From the NCBI GenBank assembly GCA_022651005.1, contig JALCQD010000001.1, forward strand, positions 248,001 through 312,000: a stretch of 64,000 nt of DNA. The letters run 5' to 3'. Position numbers and translations under genes: made by a program. Below are positions 17,106 to 30,701 of this stretch, piece after piece. The stretch's first letter is position 1, and every line of letters begins with the position of its first letter. Below the pieces are notes generated by a model. It was not told the origin of the DNA. It searched no databases and was given only the letters and a program-made list of their open reading frames with translations. Source of the DNA: Bifidobacteriaceae bacterium (lineage in GTDB: Bacteria > Actinomycetota > Actinomycetes > Actinomycetales > Bifidobacteriaceae).

Positions 17106-17753
17106 ATGAGTGAACGCAACGCCGATTCCACAACCGTGGTTCCGCATGATTCCAAGTCCGCACTGCGCAAGAAATTTCTCGCCCACAGACTAACGCTGCC
17201 ACAAGCGGAAATAACAGCATGCGGCGAACAATTGCGCGTTCGCGGCAACAAGATTTCCGAGATCACGCAGGCAAAAACACTCGCAGCTTATGTCTCCATG
17301 GGATCAGAAATTCCGACGCTCCCACTACTGAACGACGTACTCGCCCGGGGAACGAGGGTTCTTGTGCCCCGACTGGGAACAGGCCGCCAGATTGGGTGGT
17401 CATACATGGAGAGCTCAGAGCGGCTCGTGCCACAGGGTGCTCATCGACCAGAGGAACCGGCAGACGCTCCTGTTGTGGGACTCGATGAACTGAACACGGC
17501 AGACGTCATTCTTGTACCCGCTTTTTTCATCGATGCCGAAGGTTTCCGTTTGGGGCGCGGTGCCGGCTGGTACGATCGGGCACTCCTTCACCGTCGAGCG
17601 AACGCAGTCGTGATCGGAATCGCGTATCCATGGGAAACCGCAAGCGAAGAGCCCAAGGATGATGAAGCTTTACCCCGTCTGCTTCCCCGCGACCCACACG
17701 ACATTCCTGTCGGCATGGTGCTCACGCCCGCCGGCGTTACGCGGCTGCATTAA
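17106..17753 (+). CDS. 5-formyltetrahydrofolate cyclo-ligase
   Basis: The enzyme uses ATP to convert 5-formyl-THF into 5,10-methenyl-THF in the one-carbon pool. The 215-residue protein has an N-terminal KSALRKKFLAHR, the substrate-facing VSMGSEIPTLPLL, and the signature GRGAGWYDRALLHR, a variant of the usual GxGGGYYDR. ILVPAFFIDAEGFRLG precedes it. It leads the rightward set cyclo-ligase, fmdB, SAF protein, mscL, the same order as around Rv0992c in mycobacteria. Confidence 0.92.
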   Translation: MSERNADSTTVVPHDSKSALRKKFLAHRLTLPQAEITACGEQLRVRGNKISEITQAKTLAAYVSMGSEIPTLPLLNDVLARGTRVLVPRLGTGRQIGWSYMESSERLVPQGAHRPEEPADAPVVGLDELNTADVILVPAFFIDAEGFRLGRGAGWYDRALLHRRANAVVIGIAYPWETASEEPKDDEALPRLLPRDPHDIPVGMVLTPAGVTRLH

Positions 17754-17879
17754 AAGATGTAGTTCTAATCAGCTATCAGAACGATTCGCCTGCTGTTCGC
17801 CCGTTGGCATTACAATAGCTACTCGGTGTGCACGCGTGGAGCATGCGCACATTCCCGTTGACCGTGAAAGGTGTTATCT

Positions 17880-18074
17880 GTGCCCACTTACCACTATCGT
17901 TGCAAGAATTGCGGTTACGATTTCACGCTCATGCAGTCTTTCGACGATGATCCCATCACCGTATGCCCCAAGTGCGGCCAGGAGCAGATTCGCAAGGTCT
18001 TCGCCGCTGTTCCCATCGAGTTCAAGGGCCACGGCTTCTATCGCACGGATAAGTCCTCGGGCTCGTCAAAGTAG
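17880..18074 (+). CDS. FmdB-family zinc-ribbon protein
   Basis: The GTG at 17880 gives the usual FmdB N-terminus MPTYHYRCKNCGYDF and follows GAAAGG at a good distance. A GTG three codons earlier is less likely. The 64-residue protein has one zinc ribbon with CKNCG and CPKCGQ, plus the family phrase IRKVFAAVPIEFKGHGFYRTD. FmdB proteins are called regulatory from one old case, and their real role is uncertain. It follows the 5-FTHF cyclo-ligase, as in mycobacteria. Confidence 0.92.
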   Translation: MPTYHYRCKNCGYDFTLMQSFDDDPITVCPKCGQEQIRKVFAAVPIEFKGHGFYRTDKSSGSSK

Positions 18075-18880: not shown

Positions 18881-19039
18881 GCTCAGATCACGCATGAATT
18901 CGACAGGTAGGCACAAACTGTGCCACCATGAATATGGACGTGGAGGTTGTACGCAGTGACAAACATGGTGCCGACCACCATTACGCCTCAACAAGTGAGC
19001 AATAACAAGGAAAATCTCGAGGACTATTCGGAGGACAGC

Positions 19040-19510
19040 ATGATTGAGGGATTTAAGAAATTCATCGCACGCGGACAGATGATCGACATGGCAGTTGGCG
19101 TTGTGATGGGCGGCGCTGTCACCACAGTCGTGAATGCCATCGTCAAGAGCTTTATCAACCCGCTCATCGCCATGATTTTCGGCAAGCCGGATCTCGATAA
19201 TCTTCTCGCCTTTACCCTCAACGGTGCCACAGTGTCGTTCGGCGCCATTTTGGGGGCGCTGCTCAACTTCCTCATCATCTCTGTGGCGATCTATTTCTGC
19301 ATCGTGGTGCCGATCAACAAGTTCCGTGATTTCTCCAAGAAGCACTCCTCCGAGAAGGACGGAAGCGATGACGAGGATGAGGTAGAACTCAGCCCCGAAG
19401 ACCAGACCATCGCGCTGCTCACCGAAATCCGTGACCAGTTGGCCGTACAGAATGGTGGACAAAAGACAGACGGAGCAAAAGCAGATACCACAGCGAACGT
19501 GACACAGTAA
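19040..19510 (+). CDS. mscL: Large-conductance mechanosensitive channel
   Basis: The start is taken at ATG 19040, with GGAGGA just upstream and the family N-terminus MIEGFKKFIARGQMIDMAVG. The longer open frame adds an implausible 31-residue leader. The 156-residue protein has two membrane helices (about 15-45 and 70-95). The first is glycine-rich (AVGVVMGGAVTTVV) and lines the pore. A charged tail of about 55 residues includes LTEIRDQL, the C-terminal helix. MscL opens under membrane tension to release solutes in hypo-osmotic shock. It ends at a very strong palindromic terminator. Confidence 0.95.
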   Translation: MIEGFKKFIARGQMIDMAVGVVMGGAVTTVVNAIVKSFINPLIAMIFGKPDLDNLLAFTLNGATVSFGAILGALLNFLIISVAIYFCIVVPINKFRDFSKKHSSEKDGSDDEDEVELSPEDQTIALLTEIRDQLAVQNGGQKTDGAKADTTANVTQ

Positions 19511-19628: not shown

Positions 19629-19811
19629 CTATTTCTCCTTCTCAGCATCGAACTTGCCCCAATGCGGGGGAAGCTCAGTGAGGATGCGGCGGTCGTCGTC
19701 ACGCAAACGCGCGTCCTCCGTCTGTGCATCCTCTGGGTCCAGCTTCACGCCGTCCGCGTCGAACTTTTCGGTCCCTCTGCGCACCACCCGGCGATGTTCC
19801 CGCTTTGCCAT
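19629..19811 (-). CDS. Small charged protein of unknown function
   Basis: This 60-residue, highly charged protein starts with its ATG overlapping the stop of the 1296-residue gene (TGATG), so it is translationally coupled to it. It has an Arg-rich N-terminus (KREHRRVVRRG), an acidic middle and ends in PPHWGKFDAEKEK. I do not recognise a domain. Cotranslation with the helicase-like protein and the upstream FHA gene suggests it works with them. It lacks a signal peptide or membrane segment. Confidence 0.65.
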   Translation of the reverse strand: MAKREHRRVVRRGTEKFDADGVKLDPEDAQTEDARLRDDDRRILTELPPHWGKFDAEKEK

Positions 19812-22800
19812 CAGCGCCCCCCACTGCTTGGATCGCGCTTTGGTTCAGAAGCCTCGTTCTCAGTGGAACTCGCCACTCCCGCCACATCTTCGAGCAGTGC
19901 GGCGATGCGATCCACTTCACGATCGGGGTTCACGAACGCGCCCACCGACCACACGTGCACGGTCTTCCATCCGGCGACGGCGAGCTCTTCGGAAAGGTAG
20001 CGGTGACGCTGGCGCAACGACGTGATTTTCATGAATTGCGTGTCGTCGGTAAACACTGCAACGGAGAAGTTGGTCTCAGCGTCATCCGAACTTCCCTTCT
20101 TCCCAACAACGAGCGGAAGATGCCGGCCATCGTCATATCCATATCCCAACGCGGTCGCATATCCGCGAGCGCGGAGACGAGCCGCAAGATCACTCAGCAG
20201 AACGCTGGCCTCCTCGGGATGTGCCACCATCGGCACCTCGCCGGTCCCGAGGTTTTCTGCCCACTGCAGCAGACGCTTCAACATCTGCGAACCGGGCTGG
20301 GTGAGGCGCTCGTCCTCCAAATCGTCTGATGTGAAACCAGCCACGATGTCAAAATCGCCGTTCACCAGCGCAAGCACATCCAGAAGTCGCTTGGCGCCGC
20401 CAGGCTGTTCGATGACGCCGAACTGTTGCAGCAACTTTCCATGTGTGGTCTTGCCGAAGCTAGTGGAGAGAATCACGTCGCCGGGAGTCATGCCTGCGAC
20501 GTTCGCAATATCCGCCACCTCGATATGCGGCAACAGCATGGCGACGTCGCGGTTCTTCTGTGCGGCGCGCTCGAACGCGTCCGCGACGAGCGACGCGTGA
20601 GCCTGCGTCAGTGTCACCACGGACAGAGCATAACCGGCAGGAACCACGGGCATCTGGGCGGCGCGGCGTTCCACAATCGCCACCACTTCGTCGATCTCCT
20701 CGCTTGTGGTTTCCACAAGGCCGGATCCCCGCAGCGGCACACCCTTGGCATCCACCCAGCTGAATCCCACCTGCGCATGGAAGTCCGCCCCCGTTGGGTA
20801 TGAGCCCATCGGGTAGCCGTTGTCTCGCAAGAAGGAGGCGATATCGGGATTCAGCGGTACCCGGGAATATCCGGAATCGATGGTTGGCAACAGCGTGGCA
20901 GCACGCAACACGGCGGGGCAACTGGCCGTTGCCTTATCAGCAATGACTACTGCCTGAGGTGCATACGACAGCACCGACAGGAACTCAGCTGCGGGCGCAT
21001 GAGCGCAGGCATCCACGATCACGATGTCGGCCAAGCTTGCCATGGCGTAAGACGCCGCAAGATTCGCCGGGGTCGCCACAAACAGTGGCTTGGCGAAGCT
21101 CATGAGCGTCGGGTAATCCTTACGCAGGCTTGCCACGGATACGGTTGCTGGGCCCGTAAGTCCGTCATGCGGAGTTTTTGCCATGCTCTCCGTTGACTGC
21201 ACTGACTCAGAGGATCCCGCTCCAGACAGCACGGCGTGCAGCTGGTTGGCGTCCTGCGAGCGCGCATAGAGCGTATCGGAGAGACGCTTGGTGAGCTCCT
21301 GATTGATGAGAGGGCCCACTGATTCGATGTGTTCGAGATCAAGATCAGTGAAACGCTCAGTGGTATCGGTCAGCAGACTGCCATCCTGGTTAGCAATCAT
21401 GTCGGAGGAATGAACGATGGTCTCAAAGACCGTGGTCCACCACGCCAGCTGCAGCTCATCGGGCGCAGACTCCGGGGCAATGGCGCGATCGTGGAGATCG
21501 TCCACGAGGCCTGTGAGGCCCACTTGCTCAAACTCGTGCTCGAGGTTCGTGCGCTCGGGCAAATCTGCAAGCGAGGCGTGGTCATCGTAGAGGCGCTTCA
21601 GCCGAGCTTCGAGTGCCACAAACTGCGCGGAAGTGAGATCGGAGCCCTCGGGAGTTGTGGACAGCACCACATCGAGTGCGGTGAGATCCGCGGTGAGAGA
21701 TTCGAAAGTCTCGATGATGGCGTCCAATTTCGGAGGAAGCACGGGCCAGCCACCGTGTGGCACAAGTTCATGCCATTGCACCGCCTGACGCGCTACGACA
21801 CCAAGCGCCTCGTGCAGATCTTCCACTTTCACGCCCGGACGCAAGAGAGACTTGACTTCCTTGACATAGCGACGACGCTCCCAGAAGCCCATCTCAATGC
21901 CCTGTGCCTTACGATCAGGCTTGGAGAGCGTAGCGGTGAGCATGGAGCTCAAGTCGCGTTCGAAAATGGCGGGTGTGAAAACGTCAAGCACGCGCCGCAG
22001 ATTCTGGAGGGTTGCCACCTGACGGCCCCACTCGGCCACAGTGTCCGGCACGGGGAACCCGCACGTCTCCACTGTGGAGCGGATCTGTTCACGCACATGC
22101 GGTAGAAGGGTGTCTAGCAATTGCACAACGCGCTGATAAGCGGATTCTGCATCCTGAGTGCTGAGTAACGACGCCTTGAACCAAGCGGTATCAGCAGGTT
22201 CCAGGGTGTACTCGCCCAGCTGTCCGGCACGAATGAGTTTAGCGCCCCACTGTGAGAGCTTCCCGTTGAGTTGGCGCGCTGTATCAGCGGAAAGGCGTAC
22301 CCGGGTGCGTGGCTGACTTGGCAGCGCCGACACTTTGGCGAGGTTCTCAATGGTTTGGTACGCAGAGACTCCCCACGGGCTTTTCTCCTCGTGAAGATCA
22401 CCGAAATAGCGGGACAAGCGGCTGCGGATGCCCACAAGCTCATCTGCCAGTTGGTTGTACCGCGTCACAGAGCTGGCTGCCTGATGAGTGCCAGAAGCGC
22501 TGACAGCTCCGACAAGACGCGCGTCCACTGACTTCTTGAAGTCAGGATCGGTGGCGTCGAGAACGAGCGGCCCTAAGCCCAAACGCGTCGCTTCACGGAG
22601 GAAGTTGTTTTTCTGGGAGCCCACGCATGGAGCATAGAGAACGGTTTTGCCCGCGGCGATGGCGCGGGAGGCAATGGCCAAAGCATATTTTGACGAGGTG
22701 GAGTTCGACGGTGCGTTGAGAAAGATGCTCGCACCGCGCGCCACTTCACGAGCGGCGAAACGCACGGGGTTGGGAACATCCCCCACTTCGAATTCGTCGT

Positions 22801-23701
22801 GTGGATCGGCATCGGCGGTGGAATCGGCCTGCGCGTCCACCGAGGGTTGCGATTTCAGCTGATTGATTGCCGTGGCGTCGCCCGCAATGGCGTCGAGAAC
22901 TGGCAAGCCACTGGGGCTCGCCTCCAGCCGTTGCACAATCGACGTGGCACGACGGGCAATCATGGTAGCTGGATTCACGAAGCACCCCACCACGAAGACA
23001 TGATCTATGCCAAAACCATCGATGACACGTGACGCGAGGGACGCAATCTTCGCCAACGCAATGGACGTATTGACCACGCCGTCTTCGTATTCTGAAGCTT
23101 TCAGCAACGCTATGGGGTCGAAGCTCACGCCACGCAGCTTGAGGGCGCTCACCAGCTCAGGGTTGACGTTCACTCGGTCCCAGATGCGCAGAGTCGCGCG
23201 AGACATGCGCTCCTCTCCGGAGCGATCCACGTCGATGGGATAGAGCAGAACGGGCATCTGCTGCTTGCCCTGTGCCCACTTCGCCACTCCGGCGATCAGC
23301 GAGATTGCGCCAAACCCGTATGCCGCCTGAGCTTCGCTCTTGCGGGCGTAGACACGTCCCAGATCGCGCTCGGCTGCAGTGAGCGACGACGCCTCTCGAA
23401 ACAGACTCGACAGGTGCGCCTCCCCCGTGGCGAAAAGCTGGGCGGTGCCGCTGGGATGCGCCTTGGTGAGATCGAGGCTTGCGTCAAGCGCGGTGAAGTC
23501 CTTGAGCGGATCCGCCAGGATGAGATGCGAATAGTCCTCAACCCAGCCACGAATGGTACCCGACTGTGCCAAAGGACGCGGCAGTGGAACCGATTGTGCG
23601 GGGTCTTGGTGGGAGGAGAGGGCAGGTGCCTGATCATGAGCCTGCTGATGGCCTTGTTCCATGTCGCTACGCTCCCCCATGCCTGTGTTCTGCTGCACCA
23701 C
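19811..23701 (-). CDS. Degenerate SF1 helicase/Vsr-nuclease-like protein (COG1112-like)
   Basis: The protein is 1296 residues from GTG 23701; an ATG at 23680 is possible. The N-terminal ~330 residues match the DUF4011-type front of COG1112 helicases, for example GAISLIAGVAKWAQGK with PVLLYPIDV. Where the Walker A loop should be, residues 330-338 read APSNSTSSK, without GxGK[ST]. The Walker B position reads VIVDACAHAP (Asp897-Ala898), without the catalytic Glu. The end (about 1165-1280) resembles the Vsr-like domain of such proteins (RLRARGYATALGYGYDDG, GWKTVHVWSVGAFVNPDRE) but lacks the usual acidic residues. A non-catalytic scaffold is the best guess. It lies between an FHA gene and a small gene, tightly coupled to both. 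Confidence 0.7.
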   Translation of the reverse strand: MVQQNTGMGERSDMEQGHQQAHDQAPALSSHQDPAQSVPLPRPLAQSGTIRGWVEDYSHLILADPLKDFTALDASLDLTKAHPSGTAQLFATGEAHLSSLFREASSLTAAERDLGRVYARKSEAQAAYGFGAISLIAGVAKWAQGKQQMPVLLYPIDVDRSGEERMSRATLRIWDRVNVNPELVSALKLRGVSFDPIALLKASEYEDGVVNTSIALAKIASLASRVIDGFGIDHVFVVGCFVNPATMIARRATSIVQRLEASPSGLPVLDAIAGDATAINQLKSQPSVDAQADSTADADPHDEFEVGDVPNPVRFAAREVARGASIFLNAPSNSTSSKYALAIASRAIAAGKTVLYAPCVGSQKNNFLREATRLGLGPLVLDATDPDFKKSVDARLVGAVSASGTHQAASSVTRYNQLADELVGIRSRLSRYFGDLHEEKSPWGVSAYQTIENLAKVSALPSQPRTRVRLSADTARQLNGKLSQWGAKLIRAGQLGEYTLEPADTAWFKASLLSTQDAESAYQRVVQLLDTLLPHVREQIRSTVETCGFPVPDTVAEWGRQVATLQNLRRVLDVFTPAIFERDLSSMLTATLSKPDRKAQGIEMGFWERRRYVKEVKSLLRPGVKVEDLHEALGVVARQAVQWHELVPHGGWPVLPPKLDAIIETFESLTADLTALDVVLSTTPEGSDLTSAQFVALEARLKRLYDDHASLADLPERTNLEHEFEQVGLTGLVDDLHDRAIAPESAPDELQLAWWTTVFETIVHSSDMIANQDGSLLTDTTERFTDLDLEHIESVGPLINQELTKRLSDTLYARSQDANQLHAVLSGAGSSESVQSTESMAKTPHDGLTGPATVSVASLRKDYPTLMSFAKPLFVATPANLAASYAMASLADIVIVDACAHAPAAEFLSVLSYAPQAVVIADKATASCPAVLRAATLLPTIDSGYSRVPLNPDIASFLRDNGYPMGSYPTGADFHAQVGFSWVDAKGVPLRGSGLVETTSEEIDEVVAIVERRAAQMPVVPAGYALSVVTLTQAHASLVADAFERAAQKNRDVAMLLPHIEVADIANVAGMTPGDVILSTSFGKTTHGKLLQQFGVIEQPGGAKRLLDVLALVNGDFDIVAGFTSDDLEDERLTQPGSQMLKRLLQWAENLGTGEVPMVAHPEEASVLLSDLAARLRARGYATALGYGYDDGRHLPLVVGKKGSSDDAETNFSVAVFTDDTQFMKITSLRQRHRYLSEELAVAGWKTVHVWSVGAFVNPDREVDRIAALLEDVAGVASSTENEASEPKRDPSSGGR

Positions 23702-23707
23702 TGTGCC

Positions 23708-24988
23708 TTACTTCCTTCCCTCACGGTATGTACCGTATCCGGCGTTGCTCCTCAGAGCAGAGTCGATGTCGGGATCCCCAATGGCCTCGAGCCATGCATA
23801 CAGATCGTCATACAGATGCGGATTCAGCGCCAGGAACGGCAGCAACTCATGGTGCTTTGCCATTTCAAACTGTGCCGTCTGATCTGCCGTGCGCTGCGCG
23901 TCGTCGGAGTTCAGCTCCCCGATCTGGACCGCTGGCTCATGGTGATCGAGCTCACCACGCGTAAGACGATCGAAAACGGATCCGGGCTCAAACACTGCAC
24001 CGGAATCCTGCGGACGCTGACCACCGCGGCCTTCCTGCGGCGCCTCGTAACCGGCCGCCGGACGCTGATACGGCTGATACTGCTGTTCAGTCGAAGTATC
24101 GTTCACCTGTACAAATGACTGAGAAGCACTCGCCGCTGCCTCAAATGGAGTTTCCTCAGAATCGGCCGTTGCAGTAGGCTGCTCTGCAGCCGCCGGTTCG
24201 CTCTCTTGTTCCAACGTTCCAGCCGCAGTCTGCGTCTTTGTTTCTGTTTCGGAAGCGGGCTCCGCATGGTTCTGCGGCGTGGAATCAGTCTGAGCAGAAG
24301 GGGTCTGCGTCTGCTGTTCTTGCTGCGCCTTCTGAGCCTGTGATTGCGCCTCGAGATCCTGCTTCATCTTCGCGAACCCTGAGGTGCTAGCGGCCGCTTC
24401 TTGCTGCTCGAGGCGCGTCTGCCGACCCGACACCTGTTGACGCACCTTGTTCGCGTCGAACATCTGGGTAGGTTCGCCAGCGCGGACGTCGAGAATCTGA
24501 TCAACAGACAACGACGGCGCGTCAACCCCCTCCGGCGCCGTCTGGGCGGCGTAGGAGAAGAGATCGTTCGCCGGCTGTTGCGCAGGACGCTCTACGGGAC
24601 GTCCTGCGGGACTTGAGATTTCGCGATGAATTTCCACCGCGACGTCTCCCAGCTGCAAACGCAATGGCGTGCGCGCAAGCGTGTAATCCTGATCTAGTGG
24701 CAGACGCATCAGCTCTCCATCAGATCGCACAATATACGTGCCGTTGGTGGAATGAAGATCATGAATCGTAGCAGAGCCATTCGCATTCACCGTAAAACGA
24801 GCGTGACGCTTCGACATCGATTTGCCGGGATCGTCAACGTCGAGACGGGTCTCTCCCTCTCCCACTGAGGCTGGCCGCAACGGAGTCCTGCCGATGATCA
24901 CCGAATCACCCGCATAGAAGTGATATTCCCTCCCAGTATCGCGAATCTTGACAATCCAACCCTGCGTTGTGGCGTGTGTGTCACTCAC
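23708..24988 (-). CDS. FHA-domain protein with long disordered middle
   Basis: The 426-residue protein starts at GTG 24988 behind GAGGAGG. Residues 10-120 form an FHA phosphothreonine-binding domain: VIIGRTPLRP, the loop SMSKRHARF and DLHSTNGTYIV. About 230 residues rich in Gln, Ala, Thr and Glu follow, ending in a conserved C-terminal segment (about 365-426) with HHELLPFLALNPHLYDDLYAW. The next gene starts 6 bp later. FHA proteins read Ser/Thr kinase signals, so this protein may recruit the helicase-like partner in response to phosphorylation, which is inference. Confidence 0.85.
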   Translation of the reverse strand: MSDTHATTQGWIVKIRDTGREYHFYAGDSVIIGRTPLRPASVGEGETRLDVDDPGKSMSKRHARFTVNANGSATIHDLHSTNGTYIVRSDGELMRLPLDQDYTLARTPLRLQLGDVAVEIHREISSPAGRPVERPAQQPANDLFSYAAQTAPEGVDAPSLSVDQILDVRAGEPTQMFDANKVRQQVSGRQTRLEQQEAAASTSGFAKMKQDLEAQSQAQKAQQEQQTQTPSAQTDSTPQNHAEPASETETKTQTAAGTLEQESEPAAAEQPTATADSEETPFEAAASASQSFVQVNDTSTEQQYQPYQRPAAGYEAPQEGRGGQRPQDSGAVFEPGSVFDRLTRGELDHHEPAVQIGELNSDDAQRTADQTAQFEMAKHHELLPFLALNPHLYDDLYAWLEAIGDPDIDSALRSNAGYGTYREGRK

Positions 24989-25289: not shown

Positions 25290-26339
25290 TCAGACTCGCA
25301 CGGATGGCGGATACCCAATTCCCAGATATGGAACAGCATGATTGAACTCCAAGAACCCTGATTTTGCTCCTTTGCGACGAGGAACTCCGTAGATAGCAAG
25401 TTCACGCTGGAGTACCGAAAGATTGTGAATATCATCAAAATCGATATCATTCACGCTGACGCCTTGTAATGACAAACGATGGCCACGCTTCTCCTCGGCA
25501 GATTCAATCTCTCGCACAGATTTGCCCTGTGTCATTACCGGGTCCACATACTTCTGTCGCCCATGAAACTCGAAAACAACAGGTCCTCTTGCGCCGTGTT
25601 CCCAAAAGTAATCAACACGAGACTTCTTCTTTCTCAGAGGATCAAAAAAATTAACCTGCAGCTCAGGAGGTTCGAAACCCAAACAGATCATCTGCGCGCG
25701 GGCATATGATTCACCGCCATTTTCGCTGAGTCCGTCACCATACGAAATGCATATCATCGCTCGGCGCGCATTCCGATACGTCATGTGCGACATGCAATAT
25801 TCCATCAAACTTTTCATGCTGACCCATTCCGAGCGTAAAGCCGCATCGACGATGCCCAACGCTTCAGAGAACTCTAGCTCACGAACGCAATCGAAAACCG
25901 TCCGCTCCATACGCGTCACTGTGACGCTTCGTGCATATGAGATCTCAGATAGCTCCGTCTCATTCGCATAATGCGACACCACTCGCTTGCTGGAATGTCG
26001 GCGCACAGAGCTTGGTGAAAGAATGTGGAATTTCCCGTCCATCAGATAATACGAATCACAAATTCCGCAGACGATTGCCGCTGAAAGACCGCAAAAGACC
26101 CACTTTTGATGCACAGTCGCAAGTGTCTGAATTAAAGTCCTTGTCTGTTCTATAGGGGTGAGTGATTCCCACCATTTCCTATGCGCGAAAAATCCTCGAT
26201 AAGGTGAACAAATCACGCTGTTTTCGCGCCGTGCATTGCGCCACAGTGTCTGCCGCACATTGCGCGACAATGGAACATATGCGAGACCGCGAAACTCACA
26301 ATCGTTCAATTCAGAGTCTAAGTATGAGGAGAGTGTCAT
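25290..26339 (-). CDS. AbiEi/DUF559-like protein with predicted PD-(D/E)XK-type C-terminus
   Basis: The 349-residue protein resembles actinobacterial proteins that join an AbiEi-like N-terminal part to a Vsr/DUF559-like nuclease part. Visible marks are VFCGLSAAIVCG (the usual SHxSAA position), VTRMERTVFDCVRELEF (the TSPxRTxxD position) and ALGIVDAALRSEW. Then come GESYARAQMICLGF, SRVDYFW and VVFEFHG. Glu210, Asp243, Glu257 and His259 could form the active site. No partner toxin gene is adjacent. There is no good ribosome binding site; a small hairpin (GAGGC/GCCTC, 26345-26359) precedes the ATG. Composition is AT-richer than neighbours, which suggests transfer. Confidence 0.65.
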   Translation of the reverse strand: MTLSSYLDSELNDCEFRGLAYVPLSRNVRQTLWRNARRENSVICSPYRGFFAHRKWWESLTPIEQTRTLIQTLATVHQKWVFCGLSAAIVCGICDSYYLMDGKFHILSPSSVRRHSSKRVVSHYANETELSEISYARSVTVTRMERTVFDCVRELEFSEALGIVDAALRSEWVSMKSLMEYCMSHMTYRNARRAMICISYGDGLSENGGESYARAQMICLGFEPPELQVNFFDPLRKKKSRVDYFWEHGARGPVVFEFHGRQKYVDPVMTQGKSVREIESAEEKRGHRLSLQGVSVNDIDFDDIHNLSVLQRELAIYGVPRRKGAKSGFLEFNHAVPYLGIGYPPSVRV

Positions 26340-26648: not shown

Positions 26649-27032
26649 TTACTTAAGTTCGACGGTAGCGCCGGCCTCTTCGAGAGCAGCCTTCGCCTTG
26701 TCAGCGTCTTCCTTCTTGGCACCTTCGAGAACGGCCTTGGGAGCGCCGTCAACGAGATCCTTGGCTTCCTTGAGGCCGAGGGAGGTGATGGCACGAACGG
26801 CCTTGATGACCTGGATCTTCTTGTCACCAACAGAAGCGAGAACGACGTCGAACTCGTCCTTCTCTTCAGCGGCAGCAGCAGCGCCAGCGGCAGGAGCAGC
26901 AGCAACGGCAGCAACCGGAGCAGCAGCTTCAACGTCGAATTCGTCCTCGAACTTCTTGACGAAGTCAGAGAGTTCAACCAATGTCATTTCCTTGAACGCG
27001 TCAAGGAGCTCGTCTGCAGAGAGCTTAGCCAT
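26649..27032 (-). CDS. rplL: Ribosomal protein bL12 (L7/L12)
   Basis: This stalk protein recruits translation GTPases to the ribosome. The 127-residue protein has the dimerising N-terminal domain ([18 protein letters not shown]), an Ala-rich flexible hinge (about 35-58) and the C-terminal domain with [31 protein letters not shown] and [16 protein letters not shown] precedes the ATG. It is the second gene after rplJ, with 123 bp between them, and ends at a strong hairpin. Confidence 0.98.
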
Positions 27033-27155: not shown

Positions 27156-27677
27156 TCAGGCGGCCTTTTCTTGCTTGTCGCGCAGAGCGTCGAACGTACG
27201 AACTGCCTTGGTGGGCAGTGCGTTGAACGCGTACGCAGCCTTGGCCATCGTGCCCTTGAGAGCACCAGCCATCTTGGAGAGAAGAACAGGACGAGATTCG
27301 AGCTCAGCGAGCTTTGCAACCTCTGCCGCGTCATAGATGGATCCGTCAACGAATCCGCCCTTGACAACGAGCTGCTTGTTCTCCTTGGCAAAGTCACGCA
27401 GGGTCTTAGCGGCCTCGACGTAATCGCCACGGATGAAGGTGTAAGCGCCAGGTCCGACCATCTGATCGTCCAGGCCCTCAACACCGGCTTCCTTCGCGGC
27501 AATGCGTGCCAACGTGTTCTTCGCCACAACATAGGAAGTATCGGAGCCAAGCTTGACGCGCAGGTCAGAGATCTGCGGCACACTCAGGCCCCGGTACTCG
27601 GTAAGGATGACGGCGTCGGCGTTGCGGAATTGTTCCGTAAGGTCGGCAATCACCTTTTCCTTTTCGGGCCTTTTCAT
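27156..27677 (-). CDS. rplJ: Ribosomal protein uL10
   Basis: L10 anchors the L12 dimers to 23S rRNA. The start is ATG 27677, after AAGGAA, giving 173 residues with the N-terminus MKRPEKEKVIADL. The longer frame runs back through the attenuator and is rejected. Typical segments are ILTEYRGLSVPQISDLR, YVVAKNTLARIA and the C-terminal L12-binding helix. The leader (27678-27880) carries a promoter and an intrinsic terminator, so expression is likely controlled by attenuation. Confidence 0.97.
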   Translation of the reverse strand: MKRPEKEKVIADLTEQFRNADAVILTEYRGLSVPQISDLRVKLGSDTSYVVAKNTLARIAAKEAGVEGLDDQMVGPGAYTFIRGDYVEAAKTLRDFAKENKQLVVKGGFVDGSIYDAAEVAKLAELESRPVLLSKMAGALKGTMAKAAYAFNALPTKAVRTFDALRDKQEKAA

Positions 27678-27734
27678 GGCGTTCCTTCCTAAGTGATCGC
27701 TGTTCATAACCACCGCGCGAGTACCTGCAGGCAT

Positions 27735-27761
27735 AAAAAAAGCCCTGCACACAGGCAGAGC
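27735..27761 (-). terminator. Intrinsic terminator (attenuator) in the rplJ leader
   Basis: On the minus strand GCTCTGC and GCAGGGC form a 7-bp stem with one G-U pair around a 6-nt loop, followed directly by seven Ts. It stands between the rplJ promoter and start codon, about 60 bp before the ATG, so it must be read through or disrupted for rplJ-rplL expression. Confidence 0.8.
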
Positions 27762-27883
27762 GGACTTCACCGAAGCGAAATATTCTCAACCTGCGCTGGC
27801 CTCACGAGGAAGCTTCGGGAACCGTGTTTGCACCTCTCGGCACGCACACTGCTCCAACCAACGGTCTGTGGTTTACAGATGAG

Positions 27884-28562: not shown

Positions 28563-29279
28563 TCAGAGGTCGGCGCGCTCGACAAGACGTGCCAGCTGAA
28601 TGCGGTTGAGTCCGAGCTTGTCGGCGGCGGCAGACAAATGCACCTTCACTGTCCGCTCACTGATGAACATCTTTTCCGCAATCTCGTTATTGCGCAATCC
28701 TTGGGCACTCAACAAAACAGCCGTTCGCTCGCGCTCACTGAGTTCGTCGAGTTGCGCCCGCGCCGCCGCTTGTCGGTCCATTGGCCGGTCCGCCGTAAGT
28801 TCGCGGAGAAGCTGTTTCTGACTAGCGGAATTGAACTGCGGCGTTCCCTCGTATACTCCCACCACGCGGTGAATCATCTCTTGAGGAGAATCCGTTTTGG
28901 ATACGAATCCCTCAGCCCCCGCCTCGATGGCGCGTTCCGCCATACCAGAGGGACTCAGAGACGTCAGTATGAGAACATGCGGCGATCCCGGGAGTGCACG
29001 AAACGCCGCGGTACCCTGAATGCCATCCATTCCTCCGGGAATGTTGATGTCCATGAGCACCACATCCACCGGGTGATCGCGGGTCAATGCGAGTGCATCC
29101 TCCACGGAGAGCGCGGAGAAAGCGACCTTTAATCGATCGTGCGAGTAATCGGTAAGGATCAGCGACACCGCCTGGCAAATCATGGGATCGTCATCGACAA
29201 TGGCAACTCTGATAGTGTCCGGTTCGGCGTCTGATGCGTGCATGGTCCCCATGATATCGGTCGGGCGTGGCAGGCTCAT
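28563..29279 (-). CDS. NarL/LuxR-family response regulator
   Basis: The 238-residue frame has a receiver domain (about 22-145) with acidic pair VDDD, phosphoacceptor Asp in VVLMDINIPGG and Lys in GFVSKTD. The C-terminal LuxR-type HTH follows, with LSERERTAVLLSAQGLRNNE and MFISERTVKVHLSA. Starts at the later Met codons (MGTMHASD) are possible. It follows its kinase by 9 bp. Targets are unknown. Confidence 0.92.
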   Translation of the reverse strand: MSLPRPTDIMGTMHASDAEPDTIRVAIVDDDPMICQAVSLILTDYSHDRLKVAFSALSVEDALALTRDHPVDVVLMDINIPGGMDGIQGTAAFRALPGSPHVLILTSLSPSGMAERAIEAGAEGFVSKTDSPQEMIHRVVGVYEGTPQFNSASQKQLLRELTADRPMDRQAAARAQLDELSERERTAVLLSAQGLRNNEIAEKMFISERTVKVHLSAAADKLGLNRIQLARLVERADL

Positions 29280-29288
29280 GACGCCGGC

Positions 29289-30701
29289 TCAGGAAATCGG
29301 CACGAAGGGAAGACTGACATCCAGGTGGAACACGGAACGTCGGTCTGTTCCATAAGCGCACGTCCCCTTGCATTCCTCCACCCGCGGTGCGAGACCTTTC
29401 AGCCCATTGCCGCCATGCGCACCCGATGCCATACCGGACGGAAGGGGCATCGACGTGCCTCCCGGAGTTGGTACTCCAGTTTGAGTTCCCTCTTGTGGCA
29501 GCAGCGGAACCGGATTCGTCATGGAAATGGTGATGCCTTTGGTGGGGATCACCGAAATGCTCAAAGATACAGGAACACCCGGGGCATGGCGGCGCGCATT
29601 GGTGAGGCCCTCTTGTACGGCGCGAAAGGCGACCTTTCCCACGTTAGGGCTGAGTGCGCTCAATCCGCGGATATCAACCCAGAGCCGCAGCTCGGTTCCC
29701 GACTCACGCACATCCGCAAAGAGCGCATCAAGCGCGTCCTGAGTCAGGGCCGTCTCCTCCCCTGGCGCAAGGAGCCGAGCCGCGGAATCCGGGTGCCTCA
29801 ACATGTCGATGATGCTGTGCGCCTCATCGAGAGCTCCTGCCGCTTGACTCCGCAGATCGTCGGATTTCCGCTGAATTGACGCCTGCAATTGGGAATCTGT
29901 TGGGGCTTGCCGCAATTTCTCGACGTCTGCCCCCAAAGTCGTGGCATTGACGGCAATGAGCGAAAGGCTGTGCGCCAGCGTGTCGTGTGCCTCAGCCGCT
30001 ATGGAATCGGCGATCTGCTTATTGCTCAGGCTTGTTTGAATATCGTCTGCCCGCTGTTTTTCCGAACGCGCCTGGGCCAACGAACGACGCGATACTGCAG
30101 CGTTTCTCATGGCAATGCCACAGAAAACGCCGATACCCATGAGAATGGCGGGGACAAAGAGGCAGATGAGCCACCCCGTCACATTCAGCATGCCGGATGC
30201 CGTGTGGACCGCTTCACCGTTCCCACCCTGCCCAAAAAAGGTGAGAATAAGCGAATATTTCATCGGAGCCGATAAATCTACGACGTACGACATGACTGAG
30301 GCGACATAGGCGAACGCTGCGCACAGAGTGATGTTATGTCGATTACTTCTGCGCGCCACGAGGCCAGCGATCCCGACAATCGCGAAAAGGGAATCAAGCT
30401 GGAAAAGCAAGGTGACTCCACTTGCGATGAGAGACACCACATAGGGTCGTTTCTCTCTCCACATGAGAAAGAACGGAGCGACAATACCCACTAGCGTTCC
30501 CAGAGCTCTGAGCGTGAAAAACCAGTTGTTTCCGAGCGCAAGCGCCCAATTTCCTCCAAAGGACGCGATGGAAAGATTCATCACAGCGCATACCACAATA
30601 AGGGCGACAGTGTAGCCGCGCCTAGCGGGAATGTTCATCTGGTCCTCATCGTCGTCAGAGGTCCGAGGTGCGTGCAGCAGTGATGTCATAGCCCTCATCA
30701 T
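29289..30701 (-). CDS. Sensor histidine kinase of the HisKA_3/NarX type
   Basis: The 470-residue frame could start at a later ATG (30689, after GAGGG). It has five or six membrane helices in the first ~215 residues and no clear extracellular domain. The dimerisation helix has the phosphoacceptor His in EAHDTLAHSLSLIAVNA. The ATPase domain follows, with AVQEGLTNARRHAPG and GGNGLKGLAPRVEE. The ATPase region contains a Pro/Gly-rich insert of about 35 residues. It pairs with the NarL-type regulator downstream, as in systems for cell-envelope or antibiotic stress. Confidence 0.9.
   Translation of the reverse strand: MMRAMTSLLHAPRTSDDDEDQMNIPARRGYTVALIVVCAVMNLSIASFGGNWALALGNNWFFTLRALGTLVGIVAPFFLMWREKRPYVVSLIASGVTLLFQLDSLFAIVGIAGLVARRSNRHNITLCAAFAYVASVMSYVVDLSAPMKYSLILTFFGQGGNGEAVHTASGMLNVTGWLICLFVPAILMGIGVFCGIAMRNAAVSRRSLAQARSEKQRADDIQTSLSNKQIADSIAAEAHDTLAHSLSLIAVNATTLGADVEKLRQAPTDSQLQASIQRKSDDLRSQAAGALDEAHSIIDMLRHPDSAARLLAPGEETALTQDALDALFADVRESGTELRLWVDIRGLSALSPNVGKVAFRAVQEGLTNARRHAPGVPVSLSISVIPTKGITISMTNPVPLLPQEGTQTGVPTPGGTSMPLPSGMASGAHGGNGLKGLAPRVEECKGTCAYGTDRRSVFHLDVSLPFVPIS

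Follow-up and report, generated by a model that had tools for sequence, protein, structure and literature searches.

A conserved relative of anti-phage helicase-nucleases with apparently lost ATPase and nuclease sites and a detached C-terminal tail in Bifidobacteriaceae

How does a protein of 1296 residues with the plan of a helicase joined to a nuclease persist in a bacterial chromosome when residues of both catalytic sites are missing? The question is raised by a Bifidobacteriaceae genome (assembly GCA_022651005.1), of which I analysed a window of 64,000 nucleotides (positions 248,001 to 312,000 of contig JALCQD010000001.1); coordinates below are those of the window. Three genes on the minus strand at 19629-24988 encode a protein with an FHA and an LRV_2 domain, the 1296-residue protein (the large protein) and a protein of 60 residues. 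A preliminary description, made from the DNA letters alone, had called them one coupled operon, and the details hold: 6 bp separate the FHA stop codon from the GTG of the large gene, the large and small genes overlap in TGATG with one base common to both, and the large gene is a single frame of 3.9 kb without internal stops. Its start codon is uncertain, as relatives mostly align only from about residue 50 onward. The helicase-nuclease class is already known; the surprise lies in the repeated joint inactivation that the motifs indicate at an orthologous locus, and in the identity of the small gene.

By homology and predicted fold, the large protein is a member of the class that combines a DUF4011/COG1112-type superfamily 1B (SF1B) helicase with an MTES_1575 (Vsr-type) nuclease, which bears out the COG1112 plan with a Vsr-like end described earlier. 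The NCBIfam profiles ProA (NF058533) and Hhe (NF042953) match it at 1e-40 (139.2 bits) and 6e-10 (37.1 bits), far under their curated cut-offs of 1500 and 2000 bits, and the PADLOC candidate defence family PDC-S37 matches at 6.7e-44; the strongest matching stretch is the C-terminal part. MTES_1575, which belongs to the Vsr family (PMC3710099), is found in 35 of 35 aligned orthologs at E <= 0.001, and in the window protein alone at 7.8e-06 (26.3 bits, below the Pfam cut-off of 38.2). At the same threshold 8 of the 35 match DUF4011 and 5 match AAA_11, and neither profile matched the window member itself in this search. Searched against the PDB, a profile of the ortholog alignment retrieves SMUBP-2, NAM7/Upf1 and DNA2. 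The AlphaFold (AF2) model of residues 70-1268, built with 46 sequences (mean predicted local distance difference test score, pLDDT, 86.3; predicted template modelling score 0.75), retrieves Setx, IGHMBP2 and Upf1 in Foldseek (best E 2e-6). In VIA-align it superimposes on IGHMBP2 (Z 17.6, root mean square deviation 4.6, 455 aligned residues), Upf1 (Z 17.1, 6.0, 456) and Dna2 (Z 16.9, 5.0, 455), in rows that span model residues 1-1086 and hardly cover the nuclease domain. Because profile, PDB and fold matches agree, I consider the assignment right; the profile search proposed as a check thus returned the expected helicase and nuclease families. The domain order of ProA, Hhe and PDC-S37 (DUF4011, SF1B helicase, MTES_1575) is that of the intact orthologs, whereas the window protein is shorter than their profiles (lengths 1903, 1797 and 1550), has lost catalytic residues and sits at a conserved chromosomal locus. 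With Upf1, IGHMBP2 and Dna2 it shares the predicted helicase core fold, but it has a long helical insert and lacks the P-loop lysine, the Walker B glutamate and the motif VI arginines.

The loss of the catalytic sites, which had also been noticed before, is seen residue by residue. The Walker A position reads PSNSTSSK, with the lysine and the glycines gone and the serine after the lysine still present (S337). A displaced complete Walker A is ruled out by a pattern scan, as [AG]xxxxGK[ST] occurs nowhere in the window protein or in 40 Bifidobacteriaceae orthologs, and the only GK[ST] sites of the window protein fall in other motifs, at 351 (motif Ia region, where intact orthologs also have G-K) and 1083 (motif V). 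Walker B reads VDAC, keeping an aspartate (D897) that is invariant in 40 family rows and lacking the glutamate, and the motif VI arginines (TRAR in intact orthologs) are gone in the aligned Bifidobacteriaceae rows. In the nuclease, where positions were assigned by reading intact orthologs, the catalytic Asp is replaced by P1196 and the Glu by F1217; the earlier statement that the acidic residues are missing stands for these two, but D1219 is still present. The window protein thus has neither the Walker A GxxxxGK[ST] with Walker B DE of an active helicase nor the catalytic Asp with [ED]xD of an active MTES_1575/Vsr-type nuclease, and it is, as far as sequence can tell, a real and conserved dual pseudoenzyme.

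Orthologs with and without these motifs occupy the same chromosomal place. Convergently downstream of the small gene lie mscL, a zinc-ribbon gene that I take to be fmdB, and the 5-formyltetrahydrofolate cyclo-ligase gene (MTHFS). Counting only loci whose downstream sequence exceeds 2 kb, at least one of mscL and fmdB follows within 5.5 kb at 25 of the 28 that keep the Walker lysine and at 86 of the 94 that lack it. Terrabacter, Intrasporangium, Knoellia and Humibacillus carry intact orthologs here (GPPGTGKSQ, FDEASQ, D..[E]xD). Two intact orthologs score high against ProA (819 bits at locus L155, 803 in Knoellia koreensis, L171), and two lysine-less orthologs score lower (339 in Pseudarthrobacter sp. 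NamE5, L181; 341 in Cellulomonas fimi, L231). A horizontal defence island is contradicted by the conserved synteny. A record titled as an Acidobacteria metagenome-assembled genome (L223) encodes, beside fmdB and MTHFS as usual, a protein of the Micrococcaceae type and is probably mislabelled or from a contaminated bin.

For the counts I took 134 loci, of which one (L118) gave no helicase hit, leaving 133, and two (L178 and L192, truncated) were unscored, leaving 131. All 32 orthologs that have the Walker A lysine also have the Walker B DE, as against none of the 99 that lack the lysine; the nuclease D..[ED]xD is present in 32 of 32 and 1 of 99, respectively, or 7 of 99 if Glu is allowed for the first Asp. 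In place of the lysine, all 49 Micrococcaceae rows have Gln; the families numbered f18, f6 and f34 have Gly, Ala and Arg, respectively, the Cellulomonadaceae (f8) Val, Ser or Thr, and Bifidobacteriaceae rows Ser, Ala, Thr or Asn. Family f8 and the Micrococcaceae (f5) were assigned by tree position, and f16 is Intrasporangiaceae/Dermatophilaceae through the identical sequences of L102 and L176. Eighty loci are named, being the best-scoring among the matches listed, mostly Micrococcaceae and Intrasporangiaceae.

On a tree of 72 rows, which took in 22 of the 80 named loci and left out L115-L118 (divergent or without hit), the lysine state changed at least six times, and the alternative in which all 51 inactive rows form one clade is rejected (log-likelihood difference 284, approximately unbiased test p-AU 7.4e-9). 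The tree was made under LG+G4 with a quick search, and the inactive group was defined by motif after the tree had been seen. The motif columns were retained; as these favour grouping the inactive rows, the rejection of a single loss should be conservative. Separate losses are seen in Nostocoides sp. Soil756 and Phycicoccus sp. CSK15P-2, which are nested among intact Intrasporangiaceae. The intact state is taken as ancestral because its motif is that of the whole superfamily. Judged by these motifs, the ATPase and nuclease sites fail together, and more than once, at one orthologous locus. The proposed check on the lost motifs across Bifidobacteriaceae thus confirms the loss, but shows that it is not peculiar to this operon and spans much of the order.

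The order-wide search gave matches in 246 of 248 genomes, counted as best hits that may include other COG1112 proteins. Class-wide, 164 of 295 genomes match, those outside the order mostly partially (as pieces of longer open frames) or weakly. Strong, nearly full-length matches outside the order occur in 19 genomes of f34 (lysine to Arg in three of three examined); single genomes of f24 (Arg), f38 (intact) and f32 (intact, in two pieces) add further strong matches.

What, then, is the 60-residue protein? It ends in RRILTELPPHWGKFDAEKEK. In 61 of 133 loci, among them 37 of 49 in Micrococcaceae and 12 of 23 in Intrasporangiaceae, the large protein itself terminates in a similar sequence, for instance WLxEQRPPHW. 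At 59 of the 133 the tail is on a separate downstream open reading frame (ORF), as also at L114, which the pattern missed; at 13, L114 included, the pattern did not find it, L086, L115, L164 and L192 among them lying at contig ends. It was not seen in the six loci outside the order (f24, f32, f34 and f38). The tail accompanies intact and inactive large proteins alike. Pfam and NCBIfam give no match for the 60-residue protein. Searched in eight genomes, the E-x-PPHW pattern gave four matches, all adjoining the large gene, and four genomes had none; as a reversed control pattern gave six, only the position of the matches is informative. By this correspondence the small gene is the C-terminal tail of the large-protein family, detached and predicted to be supplied in trans. 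The coupled third gene described earlier is thus present, but not as an independent third protein. That the tail is fused in some lineages and separate in others argues that tail and large protein work together. Many fused tails (e.g. L155-L179) carry a motif like D-x-x-D/L-x-GWGE upstream of PPHW. Two divergent orthologs from one genus of the Bifidobacteriaceae (L116 and L117) have the PPHW tail fused at the C-terminus; at their loci neither the FHA gene nor mscL/fmdB as neighbours are present.

Within the Bifidobacteriaceae, the large protein is matched in 181 of 189 genomes, and in 159 of the 161 of good quality (completeness at least 90%, contamination at most 5%). Compared with the two nearest relatives, its gene has a ratio of nonsynonymous to synonymous substitution rates (dN/dS) of 0.095 in both cases, and compared with a more distant one a ratio of 0.283, which supports purifying selection as claimed before; the FHA gene gives 0.116 and 0.112 and the small gene 0.049 and 0.215, each with one further comparison saturated. 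As dS is 1.3-2.5, near saturation, all these values are rough. In 40 family rows, 163 columns are at least 97.5% identical and D892 is invariant as well as D897. The longest stretch of mostly high conservation is the helical insert (residues about 410-830), which lies mostly below mean variability and includes the invariant residues W443, W507, R569, R597, R609, R621 and W754; seven of ten Walker A positions lie at the 62nd-99th percentile of within-family variability. I read the conserved insert against the variable Walker A as the keeping of an interaction surface and not of catalysis.

By BLAST at E <= 1e-3, the FHA-LRV_2 gene is directly upstream in 16 of 20 Bifidobacteriaceae loci, L115-L118 being those without a hit. 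Among 20 loci from other families of the order (L085-L104) the same search found it at none; a divergent FHA protein could be missed. In the same 16 loci rplJ and/or rplL lie further upstream. Conservation of the operon, proposed as a check, therefore holds within the family but, at the loci compared, does not extend to the other families, and the FHA protein is rejected as a partner across the whole order. Matches to it occur in 183 of 189 Bifidobacteriaceae genomes, the weak ones perhaps to other FHA proteins. Its GR, S-x-S-K-x-H and STNG are intact in all 17 sequences aligned; the phosphothreonine-binding residues of FHA domains are GR, S-x-x-H and N-G. The intact site, together with five protein-kinase matches in the source genome, makes phospho-regulation of the operon plausible, on this evidence for Bifidobacteriaceae only. 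Of 15 genomes searched for LRV_2, 6 gave no match; the source genome has three further LRV_2 matches (C1:216353, C1:215927 and C3:62386), and the domain is scattered in the order. For the Scardovia clade an indel has been described in a protein annotated as 'FHA domain protein' (PMC4921777), which is not identified as the FHA gene of this operon.

In the explanation I favour, the ancestor of the large protein would have been an active SF1B helicase-nuclease belonging to the ProA/Hhe class (DUF4011-AAA_11/12-MTES_1575), with vertical descent since then, as profiles, synteny and tree support. This ancestor would have become a resident chromosomal gene beside mscL/fmdB early in the order. In most sampled lineages, the source included, the ATPase and nuclease sites were apparently lost, presumably with their activities, while purifying selection kept the fold. 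The helicase fold and its conserved insert may then statically hold a nucleic acid or protein complex, with the PPHW tail, in cis or in trans through the 60-residue protein, as a constitutive part or docking peptide, as its fusion suggests. In Bifidobacteriaceae the FHA+LRV_2 protein could bring the large protein to a phosphorylated partner, or release it from one. The large protein is thus most likely an ATP-independent, non-catalytic scaffold, related to anti-phage helicase-nucleases but domesticated and inactivated repeatedly; this explanation as a whole I consider an even bet. The fullest version is put forward tentatively: a domesticated anti-phage-type helicase-nuclease with joint, repeated site loss (at least six state changes) at one locus, whose ancestral partner is its own PPHW tail (in cis or on the tiny gene), under FHA control in one family, and acting in chromosome or RNA metabolism as a scaffold without catalysis.

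Several points weigh against this scaffold. The loci counted within the named Micrococcaceae and Intrasporangiaceae cannot be treated as independent. The gene can be lost, as two family genomes of good quality (G153 and G177) have no match, and several family matches list one internal stop; in those inspected (L007, L008 and L015) one open frame still reaches residue 1275. When a fused ortholog (L177, with at least the first 101 residues omitted) was modelled with AF2, the tail came out as a short helix of pLDDT 59-68 on a linker of 31-52, low values that leave its docking putative. S336 and S337 occupy the places of the Walker A Lys and Ser and reach only the 44th and 41st percentiles of variability; with D897 and D1219 kept, some nucleotide or metal binding is possible. 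PcdA of Staphylococcus keeps NTPase activity despite a degraded Walker A (PMC10602043); lost motifs alone are thus no proof of lost activity, and an assay is needed before the large protein is called inactive.

Of the competing explanations, the best placed, though unlikely, is that of a dead subunit like RecC in a DNA end-processing or repair machine, guiding DNA for an active motor encoded elsewhere. RecC contains a dead helicase fold as well as a dead nuclease fold. Its nuclease fold lets DNA pass (PMC1185551), and the large protein has the same pairing of the two folds, joined and kept for structure; repeated site loss with the fold retained would suit a role where the threading of DNA matters. 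However, RecC belongs to another helicase group and another nuclease family, the predicted fold found here is nearest to Upf1-type SF1B helicases, and the large protein is without a known active partner. Its operon contains no active motor gene, the conserved neighbours being mscL, fmdB, MTHFS and rplJL. AAA_12, the only partner motor sought, gave one weak match elsewhere in the source genome (26.5 bits) and strong matches in some other genomes.

The large protein could also still act in defence, as a non-catalytic sensor of invader nucleic acid or phage protein that signals through the FHA partner. Its relationship to ProA, Hhe and PDC-S37 speaks for this; near family-wide presence, usually at one place per genome and at a conserved locus, is unlike most mobile defence genes, and profile searches including PADLOC recognised no nuclease or toxin effector in the operon, which makes the idea rather improbable. 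Somewhat less credit still is due to a residual switch that binds or slowly hydrolyses nucleotide through the Walker B Asp and the old P-loop Ser. The invariance of D892 and D897, the unremarkable variability of S336 and S337 and the precedent of PcdA (PMC10602043) fit it, set against a Walker A without lysine and glycines, an otherwise variable loop and missing motif VI arginines. Decay into a functionless remnant, which the loss of both sites might suggest, is contradicted by the dN/dS values, the family-wide presence and the number of nearly identical columns, and is left with a negligible probability.

The scaffold reading has a parallel in PcdA, an McrB relative moved into cell division (PMC10602043): both would be resident proteins derived from restriction or defence NTPases with degraded Walker motifs, but PcdA belongs to the AAA+ McrB family, not to the SF1B helicase-nucleases, and retains NTPase activity. 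If true, it would add another defence-type enzyme turned housekeeping. Among the papers listed, bacterial pseudo-helicases are few, namely PriA of D. radiodurans (PMC4504706), RecC and PcdA, and none of the papers listed treats the large-protein family as a pseudoenzyme. The main text of an essentiality study in Bifidobacterium breve (PMC5514069) does not contain the words 'helicase', 'forkhead' or 'kinase'. What sets this case apart is the presence of intact and motif-less orthologs at the same locus in related bacteria. The natural series, from K through Q, G, A, R and V variants to no recognisable P-loop, allows one to ask for a role of a helicase-nuclease without catalysis. Coordinates are collected in Table 1.

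Table 1. Positions in the window of the three operon genes, their domains and motifs, and neighbouring genes
Feature	Position	Strand	Remarks
Large gene	19811..23701	-	1296 aa, GTG start, 0 internal stops; pseudo-helicase/pseudo-nuclease by sequence
Domain order of large protein			DUF4011-like N-terminus, SF1B helicase core with large helical insert, MTES_1575/Vsr-type nuclease fold
Degenerate Walker A loop	22688..22717	-	residues 329-338, NAPSNSTSSK
Helical insert between helicase motifs I and II	21212..22474	-	residues about 410-830
Degenerate Walker B	20999..21025	-	residues 893-901, IVIVDACAH
MTES_1575 (Vsr-type) nuclease fold	19898..20191	-	residues 1171-1268; catalytic Asp, Glu replaced
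Small gene	19629..19811	-	60 aa; counterpart of the large-protein C-terminal tail in other lineages
E-x-PPHW motif of tail	19659..19676	-	sole match to GARNNNCCNCCNCAYTGG in the source genome assembly
FHA+LRV_2 gene	23708..24988	-	426 aa
FHA domain	24719..24895	-	residues 32-90
LRV_2 domain	23747..23890	-	residues 367-414
mscL	18947..19510	+	conserved convergent neighbour, locus marker
Zinc-ribbon gene (Zn_ribbon_8), presumably fmdB	17871..18074	+	conserved neighbour
5-formyltetrahydrofolate cyclo-ligase (MTHFS)	17106..17753	+	conserved neighbour
rplL (L7/L12)	26649..27032	-	upstream neighbour, kept in Bifidobacteriaceae
rplJ (L10)	27156..27770	-	upstream neighbour, kept in Bifidobacteriaceae

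Between rplL and the FHA gene, the window has an ORF of 349 residues (25290-26339, minus strand) with no Pfam match at E <= 1 and an AbiEi-like match in PADLOC (best 1.6e-06). It is perhaps an inserted gene resembling abortive-infection or type IV antitoxin genes, which would split rplJL from the operon here. Further upstream lies a two-component pair on the minus strand, a LuxR-type response regulator (28563-29279) and a HisKA_3-like histidine kinase (29289-30701), whose HisKA_3 match of 22.1 bits is slightly below the Pfam cut-off.

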